The notes beneath the pieces were generated by a model. The model saw only the letters and a program-made list of their open reading frames with translations. It searched no databases and was not told the origin of the DNA. Of a stretch of DNA of 64,000 nt, positions 40,323 to 49,759 are shown piece by piece; within the stretch, counting starts at the first letter, position 1, and every line of letters starts with the position of its first letter. The position numbers and the translations under genes are program-made. The DNA comes from Hydrogenophaga sp. GTDB lineage: Bacteria; Pseudomonadota; Gammaproteobacteria; Burkholderiales; Burkholderiaceae_C. The stretch is from assembly GCF_011772445.1 (NCBI RefSeq), contig NZ_WVZN01000022.1, positions 1 to 64,000 of the forward strand, read 5' to 3'.

Positions 40323-40477
40323 CGTGGGAACTCCAGGACGTGTATCGGGGGACGAGTGAACCGCCCGGCGCGGGGGCAGGGCAGGGGCGGATGCGCCCCG
40401 GTCAGGCGGTGGGTGTTTCTTGCGCCGGTCGAACGACCGGGTCGGCGCGCGCCTTCGGGCGCTGGCCGCTGCCATGT

Positions 40478-40541
40478 CTGCGCGCGTCGTTGCACGCAGT
40501 GCCCCGGCTGGGCCGCCGGGACGGGACGCCTCGTCGCGTCC
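40478..40541 (-). promoter_or_regulatory. nirB leader: hairpins with six-base loops (ANTAR target)
   Basis: Read on the minus strand from the predicted start near 40542. Hairpin 1 (40541-40524) has a perfect 6-base stem, GGACGC/GCGTCC, with loop GACGAG. Hairpin 2 (40499-40478) has an 8-base stem, CTGCGTGC/GCGCGCAG (one G-U), with loop AACGAC, matching the A1/G4 rule known for ANTAR-bound RNA. Between them CCCGGC/GCCGGG forms a third stem, also with a six-base loop (GGCCCA). The rest of the leader to nirB (40477-40323) holds GC-rich hairpins (for example 40425-40440 and 40449-40462) but no T tract, so the terminator is not evident. Confidence 0.7.
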
Positions 40542-40553
40542 GGGCAAGTCAAC

Positions 40554-40568
40554 GCAAGAGCCGTGCCA
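40554..40568 (-). promoter_or_regulatory. Sigma-54 promoter for nirB operon
   Basis: On the minus strand TGGCACG (40568-40562), four bases, then TTGC (40557-40554). This matches the sigma-54 consensus TGGCAC-N5-TTGC exactly, with GG and GC at the required spacing of ten. Predicted start is near 40542, so hairpin 1 of the leader begins at about +2. Control by nitrogen limitation through NtrC is expected for such promoters in nitrate assimilation. Confidence 0.85.
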
Positions 40569-40610: not shown

Positions 40611-40678
40611 TCGCGAGGTCGCGGGCGTGACGCAGCGCCGCGAACTCGCCCTTCTTGCTGCGCAAGTGATTGATTCGC

Positions 40679-41977
40679 ATGACTTCCGTGCTGGTTCTTC
40701 TCGATGGCGCCAAGGCCTCGCCACTGCCGGCGGACCTCCAGGCCGCCGGCCTGCAGGTGCCCGAGGTGCTTGATGCAGTGCACCAATTGATGGCGGGCGT
40801 GGTCCGCCATGCACCAGATCTGGTGGTGGTGGACGCGCCGCTGCCGGGCGCGGCCCTGTTCCAGGCGCTGACGGCCCTGGCCGGCACCGCGCCGCGCCCG
40901 GTGCTGGTGTTCACCGGCGACGTGGACGCGCAGGGCATGGAGCGCGCGCTCGACGCGGGTGTGCAGGTCTGGGCCGTCAACGGCTACGGCGCGCCGCGCC
41001 TGCGCCCCCTGATCCATCTGGCACAGGCGCGCTTCAAGCGCGAGCAGGCCCTGCGCGAGGAACTGCGTGACCTCTCCCAGCGTTTCGAGGAGCGCAAGCT
41101 GGTGGAGCGCGCCAAGGGCATCCTCATGCGCGCGCGCCAGATCCCCGACGAGGAGGCCTTCCAGTTGCTGCGCGGCGCCGCCATGCAGGGCCAGCAGCGC
41201 ATGGGACAGCTGGCGCAACACATCATCCATTCCGCGCGCTACGCCGAGGGCGTGAACCGCGCGGGCCAGTTGCGCATGCTGTCGCAGCGCGTGGTCAAGC
41301 TGCACCTGCTGTGCCTGGCCGGCGTGGACGAGGCGCGCCACCGCGCGCTGCTGGACGGGTCCGCCGAGCGCATCGAGGCCAACCTGGCCCTGCTGCAGCG
41401 CAACCTCTCGCTGCCCACCTTTGGCGACCTGCTGGCGCCCGCCAGCGCGGCCTGGGCGCGGCTCAAGCCGCTGCTGCGCACCACCGGCCGCCGGAGCGAG
41501 GCGATGGCGGACACCTCGGCCGACGCCGTGGCCGACGAACTGCTCGGCCATGCGGAGCGCCTGACCACCAGCCTGGAAAGCGCGGGCTCCGTGGCGCCGC
41601 TGCGCGCGCTCAACACCGCCGGGCGCCAGCGCATGCTCTCGCAGCGCTACGCCAAGTGCACGCTGCTGGCGCTGCTGGAGCCGGCCGCCGTGGCGCGGCA
41701 CGCGCAGGCGATGGACGAGGCCCGCCAGGCCGTCGAACAAGGCCTGGCCTACCTGCAGGCCGCGCCCCTGTCCACGCCCGAGATCCGCGCCACCCTGGAC
41801 GCGGCGAGCGGCGCCTGGCAGCAGATGCTGGCCGGCGCCGCGCTGGCCGAACGCGCCACGGGGCGCGAGCGCCAGAACCGCCTGGCCGGTTTCGCGATGG
41901 CCAGCGAGGCGGTGCTGGACGCCTTCGAACAGCTCACCGCGCAGGTCGAGCGCAGCATGCAACTGCTGATCGGCTGA
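40679..41977 (+). CDS. NasT-like receiver-ANTAR regulator fused to two PilJ sensor domains
   Basis: A 432-residue protein with a rare domain order. Residues about 1-115 form a degenerate receiver (D52 in VVVDAPLP kept; the usual lysine replaced by asparagine in VWAVNGYG). Residues about 122-185 form an ANTAR RNA-binding domain (RFEERKLVERAKGILMRARQ, then LLRGAAMQGQQRMGQLAQHI). The remaining 245 residues hold two PilJ/NarX-like helical sensor modules with signatures NRAGQLRMLSQR (from 193) and NTAGRQRMLSQR (from 312). NasT is normally a bare receiver-ANTAR protein controlled by a separate nitrate sensor NasS; here the sensor seems to be built in. Divergent from nirB, upstream of the PP2C-kinase gene. 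ATG at 40679 preferred over an in-frame TTG at 40670. Confidence 0.88.
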   Translation: MTSVLVLLDGAKASPLPADLQAAGLQVPEVLDAVHQLMAGVVRHAPDLVVVDAPLPGAALFQALTALAGTAPRPVLVFTGDVDAQGMERALDAGVQVWAVNGYGAPRLRPLIHLAQARFKREQALREELRDLSQRFEERKLVERAKGILMRARQIPDEEAFQLLRGAAMQGQQRMGQLAQHIIHSARYAEGVNRAGQLRMLSQRVVKLHLLCLAGVDEARHRALLDGSAERIEANLALLQRNLSLPTFGDLLAPASAAWARLKPLLRTTGRRSEAMADTSADAVADELLGHAERLTTSLESAGSVAPLRALNTAGRQRMLSQRYAKCTLLALLEPAAVARHAQAMDEARQAVEQGLAYLQAAPLSTPEIRATLDAASGAWQQMLAGAALAERATGRERQNRLAGFAMASEAVLDAFEQLTAQVERSMQLLIG

Positions 41978-41985
41978 GGCAGCGC

Positions 41986-43731
41986 ATGGGCGCCGGCATC
42001 GACCTCGACATCGGCTTCTGGTGCCGCGCCGGCCGTGGCCCCGTGAACGAGGACTTCTGTGGCGCCCAGTTGCCGCCCCCGGGTCAGGAGTCGCGCGGCA
42101 GCGTGGTCGCCGTGGCCGATGGCGTGAGCGCCGGCGGCCTGGGCCGCGAGGCCGCGCAGACCACCGTCACCAGCGTGCTGCGCGACTACCACGGCACGCC
42201 CGAGACCTGGGACACCACCGTGGCGCTGGACCGCGTGCTCGCCGCGCAGAACGCCTGGCTGGCCGGCATGAACCGGCGCCGCGCGCCGGCCATGGGGCTC
42301 ACCACGCTCACCGCGCTGGTGCTGCGCGGCCAGTCGTACACCCTGGCGCACGTGGGCGACAGCCGCTGCTACCTGCTGCGCGAAGGCGAACTCACCCAGC
42401 TCAGCCACGACCACGTGGTGCCGCACCCCGAGCTGCGCCACCGCCTGCTGCGCGCCGTGGGCCTGGAAGACCACGTGGTGGTGGACTACCAGCAGGGCGA
42501 CTTGCAGGTGGGCGATACCTTCGTGCTGCTCACCGACGGCGTGCACGGCAGCCTGCCCGACCGGCGCCTGCGCGAGTGCCTGGCTGGCCGAGAGGCGCGC
42601 GTGGCCGCCGAGACCCTGGTGGAAGCGGCGCTGGCCGCCGGCAGCGAGGACAACGTCACCGCCCTGGTGGTGCGCGTGCGCGGCCTGCTGGAGGCCACCC
42701 TGCAGGACGCCCAGCGCCAGGCCGAGGCCCTGCCGGTGCCGCCCAGGCTGGCCGTGGGCGCGGCCATCGACGGCCTGGTGGTGACCGCCCTGGTGGCCGA
42801 CAACGGCATCAACCGGCTCTACCAGGTGCGCGACCCCGGCACGCAGCGCCTGTACGCGCTCAAGACCCTGCACCCGGCGCGCGCGCACGACCCCGACGAA
42901 CGCGCCACGCTGGCGCACGAGGGCTGGCTGGCCGCGCGCATGGCCTCGTCGCGCGTGGCCGAGCACCTGGTGGCCCTGCACCCGCGGCTGCCGGCCGGTG
43001 GCGAGCGCACGGCCTTCTACCTGCTCTACGACTGGCACGCGGGCGAGACCTTGCAGCAGCAGATCGATCGCGGCGAGCGCCCCGGCCCCACGAAGGCGGT
43101 GGCCCTGGCCATGCAGGCGCTGCGTGTGCTGGGCCGCCTGCACCGCCAGGGCGTGGTGCACCGCGACATCAAGCCCGCCAACCTGCACCAGGGCGAGGAC
43201 GGCGTGCTGCGCGTGCTCGACCTGGGCGTGGCCCTGTCGGGACGCGAGCCGGCCGCCACGCGCGCCCTGCACGCGGGCACGCCGAGCTTCATCAACCCGG
43301 AGCAGTGGGGTTTTCGCCTCGGCCCGGGCGAGGCCGAGCCCGCCGCGCCGGACGCCGGCAGTGACCTGTTCGCGCTCGGCGTGACGCTGTACCAGTTGCT
43401 CACCGGCCGTCTGCCGTACGGCGAGGTGCTGCCCTACCAGATGGGCCGCTACCACCGCGACCCTGTGGCGCCGAGCCGCCACAACCCGGAGGTGCCGATC
43501 TGGCTCGATCACGTGGTGCTCAAGGCCGTGGCGCGGGATCGCGCGCTGCGCTTCGAGACGGCGGAGGAGTTCCTGCTGGCGCTGGAGCGCGGGGCGTCGC
43601 GGCCCTTGAACGCGCCGGCCGCGTCACCGCTGCTGCGGCGCGACCCGGCGATGCGCTGGAAGCTGCTGGCGGGCGTGAGTTTGCTGTTCAACCTGATCCT
43701 GGTGGTCTGGCTGCTGTTTCTGCCGACGTGA
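41986..43731 (+). CDS. Fused PP2C-type phosphatase and Ser/Thr protein kinase
   Basis: A 581-residue bifunctional signalling protein. The N-terminal PP2C phosphatase (about 5-240) has GPVNEDF, VAVADGVSAGG, AHVGDSRCYLLR and GSEDNVTALVVRV with the metal aspartates. The kinase domain (about 260-545) has the ATP lysine in LYALKTL, the catalytic loop VHRDIKPAN (D394) and DLG instead of DFG; its glycine loop is poorly conserved. A single hydrophobic helix (about 557-577) ends the chain, so the protein is probably tail-anchored. It starts nine bases after the ANTAR-PilJ gene. Targets unknown; nitrate transporter or reductase control is suggested by location, and related fusions occur beside nitrate transporters in other betaproteobacteria as I recall. 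Confidence 0.88.
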   Translation: MGAGIDLDIGFWCRAGRGPVNEDFCGAQLPPPGQESRGSVVAVADGVSAGGLGREAAQTTVTSVLRDYHGTPETWDTTVALDRVLAAQNAWLAGMNRRRAPAMGLTTLTALVLRGQSYTLAHVGDSRCYLLREGELTQLSHDHVVPHPELRHRLLRAVGLEDHVVVDYQQGDLQVGDTFVLLTDGVHGSLPDRRLRECLAGREARVAAETLVEAALAAGSEDNVTALVVRVRGLLEATLQDAQRQAEALPVPPRLAVGAAIDGLVVTALVADNGINRLYQVRDPGTQRLYALKTLHPARAHDPDERATLAHEGWLAARMASSRVAEHLVALHPRLPAGGERTAFYLLYDWHAGETLQQQIDRGERPGPTKAVALAMQALRVLGRLHRQGVVHRDIKPANLHQGEDGVLRVLDLGVALSGREPAATRALHAGTPSFINPEQWGFRLGPGEAEPAAPDAGSDLFALGVTLYQLLTGRLPYGEVLPYQMGRYHRDPVAPSRHNPEVPIWLDHVVLKAVARDRALRFETAEEFLLALERGASRPLNAPAASPLLRRDPAMRWKLLAGVSLLFNLILVVWLLFLPT

Positions 43732-43785: not shown

Positions 43786-45012
43786 TCACGCCGCGCGCGC
43801 CCGCCCGCCTTTCTCCGCCCAGGTCCGCGTCCAGCGGATCTGCATCACGCGCAGCATCAGCAGCATGGCGGCTGAACACGCCGCGAAGCTGACGAAGCCC
43901 CAGAGGTAGTCGCCGCTGTGCTGCTTGCTCAGGCCCATGGCGTTGGGAATGAGGCCGCCACCCAGGGCACCGATCTCGCCGATCATGGAGCCCGCCACCG
44001 CCGTGGTGAGCGGCCAGCGCAGCGGCACCAGCTGGAACAGCGCGCCGTTGCCCGCGCCCAGGGCCGCGAAGCACACCAGGAACAGCAGCACCGTGGCCGC
44101 GAGCGATTGCTGCGCGAAGCCGCACAGCACCAGCGTGACGGTGACGACCAGCAGCACGCCGGTGAGTGTGTTCACGCCGCCCCAGTGGTCGGAGATCCAG
44201 CCGCCGAAGATGCGCAGCGCCGCGCCCATGAAGGCCGCCAGCATGGTGAGCTGACCCGCCTGCACCTTGCTCACGCCGAACTGGTCGTGGAAGTAGCTGG
44301 GCAGGAAGGTGGTGAGGCCGATGAAGCCGCCGAAGGTGACCGCGTAGATCAGGCTGAAGGCCCAGCCGTCCTTCTCGAACAGGCAGGCGATGTGATCGCG
44401 AAAACTCGAGTGCGCGGCGCGGTCGGGTGGCTCCTGCGCCCAGACGACCATGACCACCACGGGCAGCAAGACGCCGATGGCAGCGATGCCGTAGACCGTC
44501 TGCCAGCCGAAGGCCTGGGCCAGCGGTGGCGCCAGCAGGGCGGAAACGGCGGTGCCTACATTGCCCGCACCCACCAGGCCCATGGCCAGGCCCTTGTAGC
44601 GGGGCGGAAAGGAGCCCGAGCCGAGCGAGAGCGCGACGCCGAAGCTGGCGCCCGCGATGCCCAGCAGCACGCCCATGGCCAGCAGGTCGTTGAAGGATTC
44701 GACGAAGAAGTAGCCGAACAGCATCGCGACGGCGATGCCGCCCATCTCGACCAGCGTGGCGTTCTTGCGCCCCACGTACTGGGCCAGCACGCCCAGGGGA
44801 AAGCGCATGAGCGCGCCCGCGAAGATGGGCACGGAGAGCATCAGGCCCTTCTGCGTGGGGGTGAGGTTGTAGGCCTCCGAGATGAACGGCGCCATGGAGC
44901 CGTTGAGCACCCAGATGGCGCAGGAGAAGGCGAAGTAGAAAAAGGCGGCGCCCAGGGTCGGGGCATGGCCGGCGTTGAGGAATTGTCGGAAGTGGCCGGT
45001 CTGTGCCGCCAT
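43786..45012 (-). CDS. narK: Nitrate/nitrite MFS transporter (NarK/NasA type)
   Basis: A 408-residue major-facilitator protein with 12 hydrophobic helices of the nitrate/nitrite porter family. The signatures ALSLGSGSFPPRYKGLAMGL (about 130-149) followed by GAGNVGTAVSALLAPPLA, and the second-half AALGAGNGALFQLVPLRWP (about 325-343) with GALGGGLIPNAMG, are the two nitrate motifs of the family. It lies after nrtABD in the same direction, so this organism encodes both an ABC and an MFS nitrate importer in one cluster. Convergent with the PP2C-kinase gene, 54 bases apart. Confidence 0.93.
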   Translation of the reverse strand: MAAQTGHFRQFLNAGHAPTLGAAFFYFAFSCAIWVLNGSMAPFISEAYNLTPTQKGLMLSVPIFAGALMRFPLGVLAQYVGRKNATLVEMGGIAVAMLFGYFFVESFNDLLAMGVLLGIAGASFGVALSLGSGSFPPRYKGLAMGLVGAGNVGTAVSALLAPPLAQAFGWQTVYGIAAIGVLLPVVVMVVWAQEPPDRAAHSSFRDHIACLFEKDGWAFSLIYAVTFGGFIGLTTFLPSYFHDQFGVSKVQAGQLTMLAAFMGAALRIFGGWISDHWGGVNTLTGVLLVVTVTLVLCGFAQQSLAATVLLFLVCFAALGAGNGALFQLVPLRWPLTTAVAGSMIGEIGALGGGLIPNAMGLSKQHSGDYLWGFVSFAACSAAMLLMLRVMQIRWTRTWAEKGGRARAA

Positions 45013-45077
45013 GGTGCAGTCCTTGAAATCAACGAGGGAGTGGGCTCCCGCATTGGTGCAAGAACCGCGCCAGCTTG

Positions 45078-45121: not shown

Positions 45122-45967
45122 TCAGGCGCTCAGGGCCTCCGGCGCCTTGCCCGTGCGGGCGCTGCGCGCCATCGGCTCCACCTTGCGCTGCTTCTCGTGC
45201 AGGAAGCTCAGCACCTCGTGGCGGTAGTGGTTGTAGCGCGCGTCGTCCGACAGGGCCAGGCGGTCGCGCGGGCGCGCCAGGTCGATGTCGAGGATCTCGC
45301 CGATGGTGGCCGAGGGGCCGTTGGTCATCATCACGATGCGGTCGGACAGCAGCACCGCTTCGTCCACGTCGTGCGTGATCATCATCACCGTGTTGTGCAA
45401 CTCCGTCTGGATGCGCATCACCTCGTCCTGCAGGTGCGCGCGCGTGAGCGCGTCCAGTGCGCCGAAGGGCTCGTCGAGCAGCAGCACCTTGGGCTCCATG
45501 GCCAGCGCGCGCGCAATGCCCACGCGCTGCTTCATGCCGCCGGAGATCTCGGCGGGCAGGCGGTGCAGGGCGTGGCCCATGCTCACCATCTCCAGGTTGT
45601 GCAGGATCCAGTCCTTGCGCTCGGCCTTGGTCTTCACGCCGCGGAAGGTCTTGTCCACCGCCAGCTCCACGTTCTGGTAGACGGTGAGCCAGGGCAGCAG
45701 CGAATGGTTCTGGAACACCAGCGCGCGGTCGGGTCCGGGCTCGTTCACCTCGCGGCCATCGACGATGACGCCGCCCGCCGTGGCCTTGAGCAGGCCGGCC
45801 ACGATGTTGAGCACCGTGGACTTGCCGCAGCCCGAGTGGCCGATGAGGGAGATGAACTCGCCGCGCCGCACGTCCAGGTTGATGTGGCGCAGCACGGGGT
45901 TGACGGTGCGGCCCTTGGTGAAGGTCATGTCCACGCCGCTGATGCTCAAGTAGGCGTTGTCGCTCAT
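45122..45967 (-). CDS. nrtD: Nitrate ABC transporter ATP-binding protein
   Basis: A 281-residue ATPase of the nitrate/sulfonate/taurine ABC class. Walker A GHSGCGKST (about 46-54), the signature ISGGMKQRVGIARAL (about 143-157) and Walker B VLLLDEPFGALD (about 163-174) are intact, then the switch histidine in ITHDVDEAV. The start at 45967 gives MSDNAYLSISGVDMTF. It lacks the extra C-terminal NrtA-like domain of cyanobacterial NrtC, so it is the NrtD/NasD form, working as a homodimer with NrtB. Confidence 0.93.
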   Translation of the reverse strand: MSDNAYLSISGVDMTFTKGRTVNPVLRHINLDVRRGEFISLIGHSGCGKSTVLNIVAGLLKATAGGVIVDGREVNEPGPDRALVFQNHSLLPWLTVYQNVELAVDKTFRGVKTKAERKDWILHNLEMVSMGHALHRLPAEISGGMKQRVGIARALAMEPKVLLLDEPFGALDALTRAHLQDEVMRIQTELHNTVMMITHDVDEAVLLSDRIVMMTNGPSATIGEILDIDLARPRDRLALSDDARYNHYRHEVLSFLHEKQRKVEPMARSARTGKAPEALSA

Positions 45968-45996
45968 GGGAATGCTCCTGTGTTCGGTGGACGGGG

Positions 45997-46866
45997 TCAG
46001 CTCGCGGCGGTGCCGCGCGTGACGAGCTTGCCGATGAAGGCGACGATGCGGTCGAGCAGGAAGCCGACGATGCCGACGCAGAAGAGCGCGAGGATGATGT
46101 CGCTGATGCGCGAGCTGTTCCAGGCGTCCCAGATGAAGAAGCCGATGCCCACGCCGCCGATCAGCATCTCGGCCGCGACGATGGCCAGCCACGACAGGCC
46201 CACGCCGATGCGCAAGCCCGAGAAGATGAAGGGCGCGGCGGCCGGCAACATGATCTTGCCGAAGTACTCCACGCCATTGAGCCGGACCACGCGGGCCACG
46301 TTGCGGTAGTCCTCGGGGATGTTGCGGATGCCGATGGAGGTGTTGATGATGATCGGCCAGATGGCGGTGATGAAGATCACGAAGATGGCCGAGGGGTGGC
46401 CATCGCGAAAGCCCGCCAGCGAGATCGGCAGCCAGGCCAGCGGCGGCACGGTGCGCAGCACCTGGAACAGCGGGTCGAGGCCGCGCAGCGCCCAGGTGGA
46501 CTGGCCCACCAGCACGCCCAGGCTCACGCCGGCGATCACGGCCAGCGCGTAGCCGTAGGCCACGCGCTTCAAGCTGGCGAGCATCTGCCAGGCCAGGCCC
46601 ACGTCGTTGCCGCCGTTGTCGTAGAAGGGGCTCACGATGAGCTCCCAGGTGTCTTCCACGACCTTGCTCGGCGGCGGCAGCGCGGCGCCCGGGCGCGAGC
46701 CCAGCAGTTCCCAGATGACGAGCAGCAGGCCGATGATCACCAGCGGTGGCAGCACGTGGGTCATGAAGCCGCGCGCGGCGGTCTTGATCCAGTTGGGCAG
46801 GGCGGCCGATGGCGCGGCCGGTGGGGCCAGCCGGATCGGCTCGATGGTTTCCGTGGTGGTGTTCAT
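45997..46866 (-). CDS. nrtB: Nitrate ABC transporter permease
   Basis: A 289-residue inner-membrane permease with six hydrophobic helices (first about 38-58). The cytoplasmic coupling region VRLNGVEYFGKIMLPAAAPFIFSG-like stretch (about 186-208) is the EAA loop that docks on the ATPase. It stands between nrtA and nrtD with short gaps (55 and 29 bases), part of the leftward nrtABD-narK operon. Confidence 0.93.
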   Translation of the reverse strand: MNTTTETIEPIRLAPPAAPSAALPNWIKTAARGFMTHVLPPLVIIGLLLVIWELLGSRPGAALPPPSKVVEDTWELIVSPFYDNGGNDVGLAWQMLASLKRVAYGYALAVIAGVSLGVLVGQSTWALRGLDPLFQVLRTVPPLAWLPISLAGFRDGHPSAIFVIFITAIWPIIINTSIGIRNIPEDYRNVARVVRLNGVEYFGKIMLPAAAPFIFSGLRIGVGLSWLAIVAAEMLIGGVGIGFFIWDAWNSSRISDIILALFCVGIVGFLLDRIVAFIGKLVTRGTAAS

Positions 46867-46921: not shown

Positions 46922-48214
46922 TCAGGCGGCCTTGACGGTCTTGATCGCGAGGCTGTCGAGGTACTTCTTCGGGTTGGCCGGGTCGAAGACCTTGCCGTCG
47001 AAGAAGGTCTCCACGCCGCGCGAGGTGGACGCGGGGATGTCCTTGGCGGCCACGCCCAGGTCCTTGGCGGCGGCGCGCCACAGGTCCTCGCGGTTCACCT
47101 TGGTGATCAGCGCCTTGGTGTCCAGGCTGGTGGGCAGGTAGCCCCAGCGCATGTTCTCGGTCAGGAACCACAGGTCGTGGCTCTGGAAGGGGTAGCTCGC
47201 CTGGTCTTTCCAGAAGCGCATCTGGAACTTGCTGTTGGCCTCGACGCGGCCGGTGCCGTAGTCGAAGTCGCCCTTGACGCGGTCGATCACGTCGGCCACG
47301 GGCGCGTTGATCCAGCGGCGACGCGAGCAGATCTCGGCCACCTCGGCGCGGTTGGCCGGGTCCTCGCACCACATCTGCGCTTCCATCACGGCCTTGAGCA
47401 GGGCCTGCGTGGCGTTGGGGTTCGCCTGCACGTAGTCGGCGCGCAGGGCGAGCGCTTTCTCCGGGTGGTTCATCCAGAGTTCGCTGGTGGTGATGGCGGT
47501 GTAGCCGATCTTCTGGTTGATGAGCTGGCGGTTCCAGGGCTCGCAGACGCAGAAGGTGTCCATGCTGCCGACCTTCATGTTGGCCACCATCTGCGCTGGG
47601 GGCACCACGATGGTGGAGATGTCCTTGTTCGGGTCCACGCCGCCGGCGGCCAGCCAGTAGCGGATCCAGAGGTCGTGCGTGCCGCCGGGGAAGGTCATGG
47701 CGGCATTGACCGCCTTGCCCGAGCTGCGCTTGGCCGCCAGGGCCTTGCCGAAGGCCTTGGTGTCGGTGCCCACCTTGAGGTCGGCGTATTCCGCGCCCAC
47801 CGAGATGCCCTGGCCGCCCAGGTTCAGGCGCGCCAGGATGTTCATCGGCACCGGCACGTTGTTGGGCGTGACCGCGCCGGTGGTGATGAGGTAGGGCATG
47901 GGCGTGAGGATGTGCCCGCCGTCGATGCCGCCCTTGGCCGAGCCGAGCACGATGTTGTCGCGCGTGGTGCCCCACGAGGATTGCTTGAGCACTTCCACCT
48001 CGGTCATGCCGTGCTTCTTGAAGAAGCCTTTTTCATCGGCGACGAAGAGCGGTGCGGCGTCGGTGAGGGCGATGAAGCCGAGCTTGGCGGCCTTGGTTTC
48101 CAGCGCGGTGGCGGCGTGCACGCGGGTGCTGAGCAGGCCGCCGGCGAGAGCGGCGGAGCCGAGGGCGCCGGCCTGCTGGATGAGGCGGCGGCGGGACAGA
48201 GGGGTCGAAGGCAT
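46922..48214 (-). CDS. nrtA: Nitrate ABC transporter substrate-binding protein
   Basis: A 430-residue NrtA/CmpA-family binding protein. The N-terminus SRRRLIQQAGALGSAALAGG is a twin-arginine signal sequence, so the protein is exported, which separates it from the cytoplasmic sensor NasS of the same family. The mature domain has the family blocks KLGFIALTDAAPLFVADEKG, PAQMVANMKVGSMDTFCV-type ligand loop and CEPWNRQLI. It is the first gene of the operon. Its start at 48214 follows CAGGAG, and 155 bases of leader separate it from a sigma-54 promoter. Confidence 0.94.
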   Translation of the reverse strand: MPSTPLSRRRLIQQAGALGSAALAGGLLSTRVHAATALETKAAKLGFIALTDAAPLFVADEKGFFKKHGMTEVEVLKQSSWGTTRDNIVLGSAKGGIDGGHILTPMPYLITTGAVTPNNVPVPMNILARLNLGGQGISVGAEYADLKVGTDTKAFGKALAAKRSSGKAVNAAMTFPGGTHDLWIRYWLAAGGVDPNKDISTIVVPPAQMVANMKVGSMDTFCVCEPWNRQLINQKIGYTAITTSELWMNHPEKALALRADYVQANPNATQALLKAVMEAQMWCEDPANRAEVAEICSRRRWINAPVADVIDRVKGDFDYGTGRVEANSKFQMRFWKDQASYPFQSHDLWFLTENMRWGYLPTSLDTKALITKVNREDLWRAAAKDLGVAAKDIPASTSRGVETFFDGKVFDPANPKKYLDSLAIKTVKAA

Positions 48215-48261
48215 GGTCGTGGACTCCTGTGAGGCGAATGACAAACCGGAACCCCAAAAGC

Positions 48262-48315
48262 ACAACGGCGCCCATTTCCACACCCGCGCCGCGGGAAGGA
48301 AATGGACGCCGTTGT
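48262..48315 (-). terminator. Intrinsic terminator in the nrtA leader
   Basis: On the minus strand an 18-base arm (48315-48298) pairs fully with 48279-48262, with a single G-U, around an 18-base loop that itself contains a small CCCGC/GCGGG stem. GCTTTT follows at once. It lies 47 bases before the nrtA ATG, inside the transcript, so it would stop RNA polymerase before nrtA. The first arm overlaps the second ANTAR-type hairpin, making the two structures mutually exclusive: a regulated attenuator. Confidence 0.88.
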
Positions 48316-48365
48316 CCGTGTCTGGGGAGACTGCTCAGCTCACGGCCGCCGTTGGCTGCAAGCTG
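48304..48365 (-). promoter_or_regulatory. nrtA leader: paired AACGGC-loop hairpins (ANTAR target)
   Basis: Read on the minus strand. Hairpin 1 (48365-48336): arms CAGCTTGCAGCC and GGCCGTGAGCTG pair at eleven of twelve positions (two G-U) around loop AACGGC. Hairpin 2 (48317-48304): GGAC/GTCC around the identical loop AACGGC. They are 18 bases apart. ANTAR regulators such as NasR and EutV are known to bind two hairpins with six-base loops having A at position 1 and G at position 4; both loops comply. Hairpin 2 shares its bases with the 5' arm of the terminator, the expected antitermination layout. Confidence 0.88.
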
Positions 48366-48379
48366 TTCTGCTCGTACTG

Positions 48380-48395
48380 AGCAGGGACCGTGCCA
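48380..48395 (-). promoter_or_regulatory. Sigma-54 promoter for nrtABD-narK
   Basis: On the minus strand TGGCACG (48395-48389), four bases, then CTGCT (48384-48380). This matches sigma-54 consensus except for C in place of the first T of TTGC; GG and GC spacing is correct. The predicted start near 48369 puts hairpin 1 of the leader at about +5, which supports both predictions. Confidence 0.82.
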
Positions 48396-48479: not shown

Positions 48480-48496
48480 TGCACCGCAGCAGTGCG
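48480..48496. promoter_or_regulatory. Possible NtrC enhancer site
   Basis: TGCACC-GCAGCA-GTGCG is an imperfect dyad about 111-127 bases upstream of the predicted nrtA start, the distance usual for NtrC enhancers. It touches the nasR stop codon. One half is a perfect NtrC half-site, the other is degenerate. Confidence 0.35.
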
Positions 48497-48499
48497 CGC

Positions 48500-49759
48500 T
48501 CAGCGCGCGGGCAGCACCTCGGCCATGGACAGCAGCGCCTCCGCCACGTCCACCAGCCGCCGGTTCTGGTTCATGGCCATCTGGCGCAGGGTCTTGTGGG
48601 CCTCCGGCTCGCCCAACTGGCGGTGTGCCATGAGCAGGCCCTTGGCGCGCTCGATGATCCGCCGTTCGTTGAGGCTGGCGCGCACGGCCTCCAGTTCGTC
48701 GCCCACGGCCTGCAGGCGGCGCGCCTGCTCGTGCACCAGCTCCAGCACCGTGCGGTCCAGCGGCGTGCCAAAGCCCTGCGTGCCCACGGGGGGTGCGGCG
48801 GTGCTGGCGTCAACCGGCGCCAGATAGAAGCTCAGCGGGTCGGGCACGGGTTGGGCGGCCAGGGCGCCGAAGGTGGCCAGTTCGGCCTGGGCCTGCGCGA
48901 TCTTCTCGCCGCACAGGGCGCGCAGGTCGGCGGTGAGCCGGTCCTCCACCAGCTTCATGGCGTCCATGCGGGCGCTGCAGACGTCGAACCAGGTCTGGCT
49001 GAGTTCGGGCTTGAGCGCGGCCCCGTGGGCGGCGGTGTAGAGCACGCGGCGCAGGCGCTCCAGTTCGGCCAGGGGGGCGCTGGTGTGGGGGGCCGTCCAC
49101 AGGGCGCGCGCGGTGGATGGCGCGAAGCTCTCGAACAGCTCCAGGCAGCGCTCCTGCGATTCGATCAGGTGCAGCAGGCGCTGCTGGCCAGCGGCGTCGG
49201 CCTGGCCTTGCGCGAACAGCGCGGCGCCGGCGGCGCGTTCCTGACCCGCGAATTCCTTGCCCTGCATGAAGTTGAACAGCGCCACCAGGCGGCGCGAGAC
49301 CTCGGGGTCGCTGGCGCTGTCGGCGGCCTCGAACACCACCGCCAGCAGCGCGGCCACCAGACGCACGTAGGCGTCGGTGGCGCGGGCGGTATCCCAGGCC
49401 TGGGCGTCGAGTTGCGCGCGCAGCGCGTCCAGACCGTCCAGGCCCTGCAGCACGTAGGCAATGCGGCTGAACAGGCGCGCACCGTGCCCGGCCTGCGCGG
49501 TGCCGGCGTCCACGCGCTCGAACTGCGCGCGCCACTCGGCCTCCACCTGGCGGGAGGCGGCGATCTGCGCCGCGCGCGCCTCGGCGAAGCGCCGGCCCTG
49601 CGATCCCAGGTACAGGTTGGTCAGGCCCCGTTCACGCTGCAGACCGTGCACCAGACGCGCGGTCACGTCCACCAGGGTGGCCGTGAAGGCCAGGCGTTGC
49701 AGGCCATCGATCTCGCAGCGCTTGGCGGCCAGCAGAAAGTCCAGGCCTGTTTTCATCAT
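48500..49759 (-). CDS. nasR: Nitrate-sensing antiterminator NasR (NIT-ANTAR)
   Basis: A 419-residue cytoplasmic regulator: an N-terminal all-helical NIT domain (about 35-290) that binds nitrate or nitrite ([18 protein letters not shown] opens it), then a C-terminal ANTAR domain (about 355-410; [20 protein letters not shown], then [12 protein letters not shown]). In Klebsiella NasR binds the nasF leader and prevents termination when nitrate is present. Here the gene lies directly upstream of, and in the same direction as, the nrtA leader that carries two AACGGC hairpins and a terminator, so nrtA is its probable target. Start is one of two adjacent ATG codons (49759 or 49756). Confidence 0.93.

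Follow-up and report, generated by a model that had tools for sequence, protein, structure and literature searches.

A probable NasR-controlled transcription antitermination leader upstream of nrtA in Hydrogenophaga

The window analysed here, a stretch of 64,000 nucleotides from a Hydrogenophaga genome, carries on its minus strand a nasR gene followed by a set of genes for nitrate transport. The product of nasR (48500–49759, minus strand) comprises a NIT nitrate-sensor domain and an ANTAR RNA-binding domain (Pfam NIT, 9.6e-54; ANTAR, 1.7e-19) and matches PDB entry 4akk with an E-value of 8e-47; this entry is described in the available text of PMC7496416 as the structure of Klebsiella oxytoca NasR. 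The closest named relative of the protein is from Hydrogenophaga borbori and is 89% identical. Downstream lie nrtA (46922–48214, minus strand), encoding a probable nitrate ABC transporter substrate-binding protein (Pfam NMT1_2, 1.6e-103; NCBIfam matches below cut-off), and genes for the permease NrtB (45997–46866, minus strand; TIGR01183 above the NCBIfam cut-off) and the ATPase NrtD (45122–46192, minus strand; TIGR01184 above the NCBIfam cut-off), the listed reading frame of the latter being probably over-extended at its start. The gene at the position of nrtA is annotated CmpA/NrtA in relatives. A narK-type transporter gene follows (43786–45012, minus strand), with a match to the NarK family below the NCBIfam cut-off. 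Convergent with narK, a PP2C phosphatase and a protein kinase are found in one frame within 41311–43731 on the plus strand.

The sequence from 48500 to 48200 was read directly on the minus strand, and the nasR stop is followed in order by an NtrC-type site, a sigma-54 promoter site, a hairpin (P1), an 18-nt linker, a second hairpin (P2) and an intrinsic terminator, so the arrangement directly downstream of nasR that was proposed in the initial annotation is confirmed. The NtrC-type site, GCACTGCTGCGGTGC (48481–48495, minus strand), is an exact match to GCACN7GTGC. The expected sigma-54 promoter is present as TGGCACGGTCCCTGC (48381–48395, minus strand), and the window has two matches to the strict pattern TGGCAC-N5-[CT]TGC, one before the nrtA leader and the other before nirB. 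The start of sigma-54-dependent transcription is placed relative to the promoter elements by the −24/−12 rule, which, applied to TGGCACGGTCCCTGC, gives a predicted +1 at 48369, in agreement with the start suggested earlier; the spacing from the promoter to P1 is kept in relatives.

Both hairpins carry the same six-base loop, AACGGC, as had been noticed, with A at loop position 1 and G at position 4 and with a C-G pair closing the loop in each. P1 (48336–48365, minus strand) has 12 stem positions, one of which is an A·C mismatch, and is backed by folding and covariation; P2 (48304–48317, minus strand) has four pairs and is backed by folding and conservation. A small hairpin, GUCU-CCCC-AGAC, can be drawn in the linker between them (48320–48331, minus strand; −2.7 kcal/mol), with support that is moderate and mixed. 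The terminator (48262–48315, minus strand) has a stem of 18 contiguous pairs, including one G-U, as had been claimed, and then an inner stem of five pairs. Its first arm, starting at 48315, includes the loop and 3′ side of P2, and from this overlap P2 and the terminator are predicted to be mutually exclusive. Directly 3′ is the tail GCUUUUGGGG (48252–48261, minus strand, by direct reading), with GCUUUU followed by a Shine-Dalgarno sequence AGGAG and then the nrtA ATG at 48214. The NtrC-like site, the 18-nt linker and the linker hairpin are additions to the initial annotation.

The segment 48255–48370 folds at −64.3 kcal/mol (z −5.65) and its terminator part at −36.3 kcal/mol (z −5.59), and none of 200 shuffled sequences reached so low a value in either case. 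For P1 by itself the signal is more modest (z −2.23), with 6 of 200 shuffles reaching its energy. Downstream of GCCG, the next 12 bases, TTGTGCTTTTGG, contain seven T, where 68 relatives have 6 to 11; this is a rather weak U-tract, poorer than that of many of them. The sole match of a simple terminator scan on the minus strand of the leader was a 5-pair hit at 48284–48267. Rfam at gathering scores gave no match at the leader, and only a tRNA in the window. A model, R1, trained on the window's own leader and 48 relatives, has one match at E ≤ 0.01 in the 4.65 Mb genome, namely the nrtA leader that was part of its training set.

NasR is present in 54 of 200 genomes of the family to which Hydrogenophaga belongs, the genome under study included. 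The layout of sigma-54 site, P1, P2 and terminator is present after nasR in 29 of 30 family loci, again with the window's own counted and with L026 as the exception, and in 72 of 80 loci from named relatives, with one of the 72 (L136) doubtful; the two sets share some genomes. At the remaining eight named loci (L072, L091, L105, L111, L123, L132, L135 and L142) no leader was found after nasR by the criteria used, and L091 and L135 have less than 300 nt of sequence there. The TGG-to-loop distance from promoter to P1 in the named set is 36–42 nt, or 57–65 nt mainly in Variovorax. All 71 leaders counted in this set have a terminator by construction, as this was required of them; L136 was excluded from the linker, NtrC-site and terminator counts. 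In a phylum-wide sample, leaders were found in 8 of the 21 loci examined out of 26 new ones, one of the eight being dubious and one from the same family. Removal of L136, L125, L139, L141, L137, L120, L131 and L138 left 64 reference leaders, and 48 together with that of the window made up set A2; set A3 excludes L041. Model R1 also matches near genes for NasT-type ANTAR proteins without PilJ, with spans of about 53–57 nt (for example in G010, G123 and G141).

The conserved element that is informative about pairing is P1. In the 29 family leaders its loop-closing pair is C-G throughout, and positions 4–11 pair in 0.728 of cells compared with 0.47 in shuffled sets, with none of 1000 shuffles as high and with slid registers pairing in 0.25–0.48 over positions 2–10; P1 was picked by pairing in this and in the named-set analysis, so that a selection effect enters these values. 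Across 49 aligned leaders, all with C-G closing both loops, the covariation score of P1 is 0.496 compared with 0.137 when shuffled and at most 0.118 when slid, and both sides change in 9 of its 11 pairs. The four pairs of P2 hardly vary in the same 49 leaders, and P2 therefore rests on conservation rather than on covariation; such invariance neither proves nor disproves the helix, and it fits a double use of these bases by protein and terminator, as the overlap would suggest. The behaviour of P1 bears on two other explanations of the inverted repeats. That they are sites for a DNA-binding protein and not RNA hairpins is barely credible: NtrC-like palindromes do occur upstream, but in P1 the stem letters vary freely with pairing kept and a nearly fixed loop, which is the opposite of a DNA operator. 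It is also very improbable that the hairpins amount to a strong constitutive terminator of nasR plus chance repeats, with no regulation. Such a terminator would account for the most stable element of the leader and for its position behind nasR, but P1, which lies outside it, covaries, has fixed loops and keeps a narrow spacing to the promoter, and the promoter itself sits between nasR and the terminator.

The sequence GCACN7GTGC is the NtrC consensus. Of 71 leaders, 56 have an exact copy no more than 200 nt upstream of the promoter, compared with 1.3% in shuffles, and a further nine have the site at one mismatch. The −24/−12 elements with this site upstream fit an NtrC/sigma-54-regulated promoter, and the conservation of the site supports expression of the leader under nitrogen limitation.

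Taken together, the leader before nrtA is very probably one in which NasR controls transcription antitermination. Under nitrogen shortage, NtrC and sigma-54 RNA polymerase would initiate at about 48369. In the absence of nitrate, the terminator at 48315–48262 would form and transcription would stop before nrtA, whereas nitrate or nitrite would bind the NIT domain of NasR, the dimer of which would then hold the AACGGC loops of P1 and P2. The loop and 3′ arm of P2 are also part of the terminator, which therefore could not form while P2 is held, and nrtABD would be transcribed. The parts of the leader, their order and conservation, the covariation of P1, the domains of the partner protein and the gene order are all seen directly in the sequences, and nasR, as the candidate source of the RNA-binding partner, adjoins the leader. 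Nitrate binding, RNA binding, termination and read-through are expected by analogy with K. oxytoca NasR and with EutV. The antitermination reading of the initial annotation is favoured by the domains, the loops, P1 covariation, the terminator, the NtrC/sigma-54 promoter and the gene order shared with Klebsiella, and is opposed by a linker longer than the EutV range.

The initial annotation had further predicted read-through into nrtABD-narK, and of this the nrtABD part is supported and the narK part is uncertain, because a sigma-54-like sequence, TGGCGCGGTTCTTGCA, sits just before narK (45057–45072, minus strand). This sequence falls between nrtD and narK, with its end about 45 nt from the narK ATG, and narK may be transcribed in part without passage through the nrtA leader. 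The loose sigma-54 pattern that catches TGGCGCGGTTCTTGCA has nine matches in the window, so this one is possibly due to chance. Of two terminator-like hairpins found nearby, one falls between nrtD and narK and the other within narK.

The linker of 18 nt, with a loop-to-loop distance of 40 nt, is the feature in which the nrtA leader departs from studied examples. Three enterobacterial leaders have linkers of 9, 7 and 4 nt and loop-to-loop distances of 25–28 nt. We know of no test of linker length for NasR. According to excerpts of the studies on EutV, that protein works with a linker of 5–12 nt, is impaired at 14 nt (PMC3369931) and fails with 20 extra linker nucleotides (PMC8934654); the nrtA leader lies outside this range of about 5–12 nt. 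As the length rule was shown for EutV, we have not treated linker length as defining for NasR leaders. If the small linker hairpin forms, 6–8 nt stay unpaired, and by shortening the path such a hairpin may reconcile long linkers with the EutV range. Among 93 distinct leaders, the linker is 5–13 nt long in 28, and in no case does it fold at −1 kcal/mol or better; in the other 65 it is at least 14 nt long (median 21 nt by this measure), and 54 of these fold at that level and 11 do not; once folded, the long linkers have a median of 8 unpaired nucleotides over all 65. The count of 54 compares with a mean of 31.9 and a maximum of 41 in shuffles. After clustering, 29 of 37 linkers fold compared with 19.8 in shuffles, the largest shuffle, 29, equalling the observed value. 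For the hairpin of the window itself, the share of shuffles that reach its energy is 4% or 18%, according to the cut chosen for the linker ends. Segments upstream of the leaders, which may include NtrC palindromes, fold equally often (0.74 of 70, mean −4.64, compared with 0.75 of 24 linkers, mean −4.1). Linkers fold in 0.83 of cases (mean −3.85), random windows of the same loci in 0.79 (mean −4.03) and composition-matched windows in 0.65 (mean −2.57). A linker hairpin in the nrtA leader and its long-linker relatives thus has moderate, mixed support; the length of the linker is a fact, and we infer the role of the hairpin as a spacer.

A second ANTAR-type leader precedes nirB (40473–40568, minus strand) and consists of the sigma-54 site TGGCACGGCTCTTGCG (40553–40568), which matches the strict pattern, a hairpin P1, GGACGC-GACGAG-GCGUCC, with loop GACGAG (40523–40542), a linker hairpin (40501–40522) and a hairpin P2, CUGCGUGC-AACGAC-GCGCGCAG, with loop AACGAC (40478–40499), all on the minus strand. 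We refer to leaders of this build as class B and to those of the nrtA type as class A. Divergent from nirB is a second ANTAR gene (40670–41977, plus strand), and the genome, which is 97.2% complete, shows two ANTAR domains, both inside the window. The product has a receiver-like region (below the Pfam cut-off), the ANTAR domain and two PilJ stretches, and it weakly matches a chemotaxis transducer, PDB 6gcv, which we take to be McpN (E 0.024). It also contains two P-box-like motifs, NRAGQLRM and NTAGRQRM, that fit the P-box of NarX/NarQ as quoted in PMC8199190. A protein of this receiver-like/ANTAR/PilJ/PilJ architecture is probably a one-component nitrate regulator.

No intrinsic terminator overlapping P2 of the nirB leader is found in the window, and in this it differs from a standard ANTAR leader. 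Such a terminator is present in 3 of 23 class B loci (L144, L159 and L164), and 11 of the 23, not including the window, have a terminator-like stem up to 200 nt further on. A sigma-54 site is found in 25 of 30 loci of the second ANTAR gene, and 15 of these 25 have two RNNGNN hairpins 44–47 nt apart by a strict rule (shuffles: mean 0.32, maximum 3), by which no pair is found in the other 10. A standard scan for two hairpins and a terminator over the 30 loci gave one match (L057), which was taken as chance; direct reading of the sequences brought out the three-hairpin form. In 14 class B leaders the covariation score is 0.404 compared with 0.256 shuffled and at most 0.175 slid, and further pair types are no more numerous than in shuffled sets, 93 of 500 of which have at least as many. 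The linker hairpin folds at −5.4 to −18.3 kcal/mol in all 22 of the 23 loci examined for it (L161 was skipped), and in a fixed register it pairs in 0.72 of cells compared with a shuffled best of 0.64, a level reached by 1 of 300 shuffles.

A second model, R2, matches 28 of 200 genomes at E ≤ 0.01, the window's own included; 23 of them match at E below 1e-4, and the class B follow-up took these 23 loci and left out the five with E above 1e-4. By our reading, an ANTAR-PilJ protein is carried by 18 of the 23 genomes, in 17 within 170 nt of the leader. All 14 training rows of R2 were gathered beside an ANTAR-PilJ gene and make up 14 of the 18, and the association of leader with protein is therefore mostly a product of how the set was assembled. 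The other nine strong matches divide into four genomes with such a protein, three having it close beside the leader (one of the three a near relative of a training row), and five without it (G091, G097, G103, G109 and G129).

Some further features of the class B loci were noted. Pairing such as CCUCC with GGAG is visible by eye in many loci of the narK type, and in L144, L145, L146, L150, L151, L153, L154 and L161 the stretch that directly follows P2, often AUGUGCCUCC or similar, could by eye base-pair with the Shine-Dalgarno sequence or start of the next frame. Such pairing is not seen in the nirB leader of the window, and sequestration of the Shine-Dalgarno sequence or start codon is not claimed for the class. 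A leader peptide after P2 was considered and dropped because GC-rich DNA yields long chance frames. Downstream of the class B leader in L034, L035 and L037 there is a second sigma-54-like site, which in L034 and L035 lies shortly before nirB and could bypass the leader.

The second ANTAR protein raises the question of which partner serves the nrtA leader. That this leader works as described with the second protein as its main partner, or with both proteins acting, seems unlikely. Both ANTAR proteins are encoded within the window, and in both leader classes the loops conform to RNNGNN and are closed by a pyrimidine-G pair. The five genomes without a match to a PilJ-type protein carry class B leaders as well, two of them (G097 and G109) together with NasR, and for this reason the ANTAR partners may not be exclusive. 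Class A leaders, however, follow nasR in genomes with no match to the second protein (E ≤ 1e-20; for example G003, G020 and G025), and a separate class of leaders adjoins the gene of the second protein, although that set was collected there. For the locus as a whole, we offer as a tentative and rather doubtful proposal that it holds two nitrate-operated ANTAR switches of different build. The nirB leader would form three nearly contiguous hairpins from the predicted +1 and would have as its partner a one-component ANTAR protein with another nitrate sensor (receiver-like, ANTAR, two PilJ, P-boxes of the NarX/McpN type), gating nirB or narK by means other than an overlapping intrinsic terminator, such as ribosome access or Rho, and in both leaders the linker hairpin would set the loop distance for the ANTAR dimer. 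What the nirB leader suggests is an ANTAR protein whose nitrate sensor, and perhaps whose action on nirB, is of another type; with the nrtA leader, the way in which an ANTAR dimer accommodates linkers of about 20 nt becomes accessible to experiment.

Leaders of related kinds have been described in several bacteria. The eutP leader of Enterococcus faecalis, the target of EutV, shares with the nrtA leader two hairpins with A1/G4 loops and an overlap of P2 with the terminator, and differs in its signal, in its genes and in that long linkers are not tolerated, as far as described in the available parts of PMC3369931 and PMC8934654. The NalA leader of nirBD in Pseudomonas, controlled by NasS-NasT, shares the NtrC and sigma-54 promoter, an ANTAR antiterminator and nitrate assimilation genes, but NasT senses through NasS whereas NasR senses itself, and, in contrast to NalA as excerpted in PMC12830290, the window's nirB leader is without an overlapping terminator. 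Actinobacterial ANTAR RNAs that act on translation, with dual hairpins near the start, are relevant to the nirB leader only, and belong to another phylum and other genes (PMC8164766, in part). Many such leaders before nitrogen genes were predicted by Ramesh et al., with Burkholderia among the genera named in the available text, and some leaders of the present set may already be listed in the tables of that paper (PMC3369931). Among the matches listed from the open-licence literature, none deals with an ANTAR-PilJ regulator, with nitrate leaders of Hydrogenophaga or with a hairpin in the linker of an ANTAR leader.

The closest likeness is to Klebsiella, the genus in which NasR antitermination was worked out. 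Records of Klebsiella pneumoniae, Pantoea and Erwinia show the same order, with the leader parts and then a gene of the CmpA/NrtA family downstream of nasR, and in that of Azospirillum lipoferum other genes, not nrtA, come after nasR. The nasF leader of K. oxytoca M5al and the leader described here have in common the order from nasR through the leader to nasF or nrtA, the NIT-ANTAR protein, the sigma-54 promoter, two hairpins with six-base A1/G4 loops and an overlapping terminator, the Klebsiella record compared being that of Klebsiella pneumoniae. The Klebsiella leader differs in having a 25-nt loop-to-loop distance and a 9-nt linker, compared with 40 nt, 18 nt and a possible linker hairpin here, and in its second loop, which is AAAGGC and not AACGGC. 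According to the accessible portion of PMC7496416, the RNA that K. oxytoca NasR binds in the presence of nitrate has two hairpins, with C-G pairs closing the A1/G4 loops, and SELEX with NasR gave the same loop-closing C-G as is found at P1. The nrtA leader is thus a well-supported example of a known device and adds to an already known kind of NasR leader, and through it the NasR switch known from Klebsiella is extended, on covariation and promoter evidence, to Hydrogenophaga and many of its relatives.
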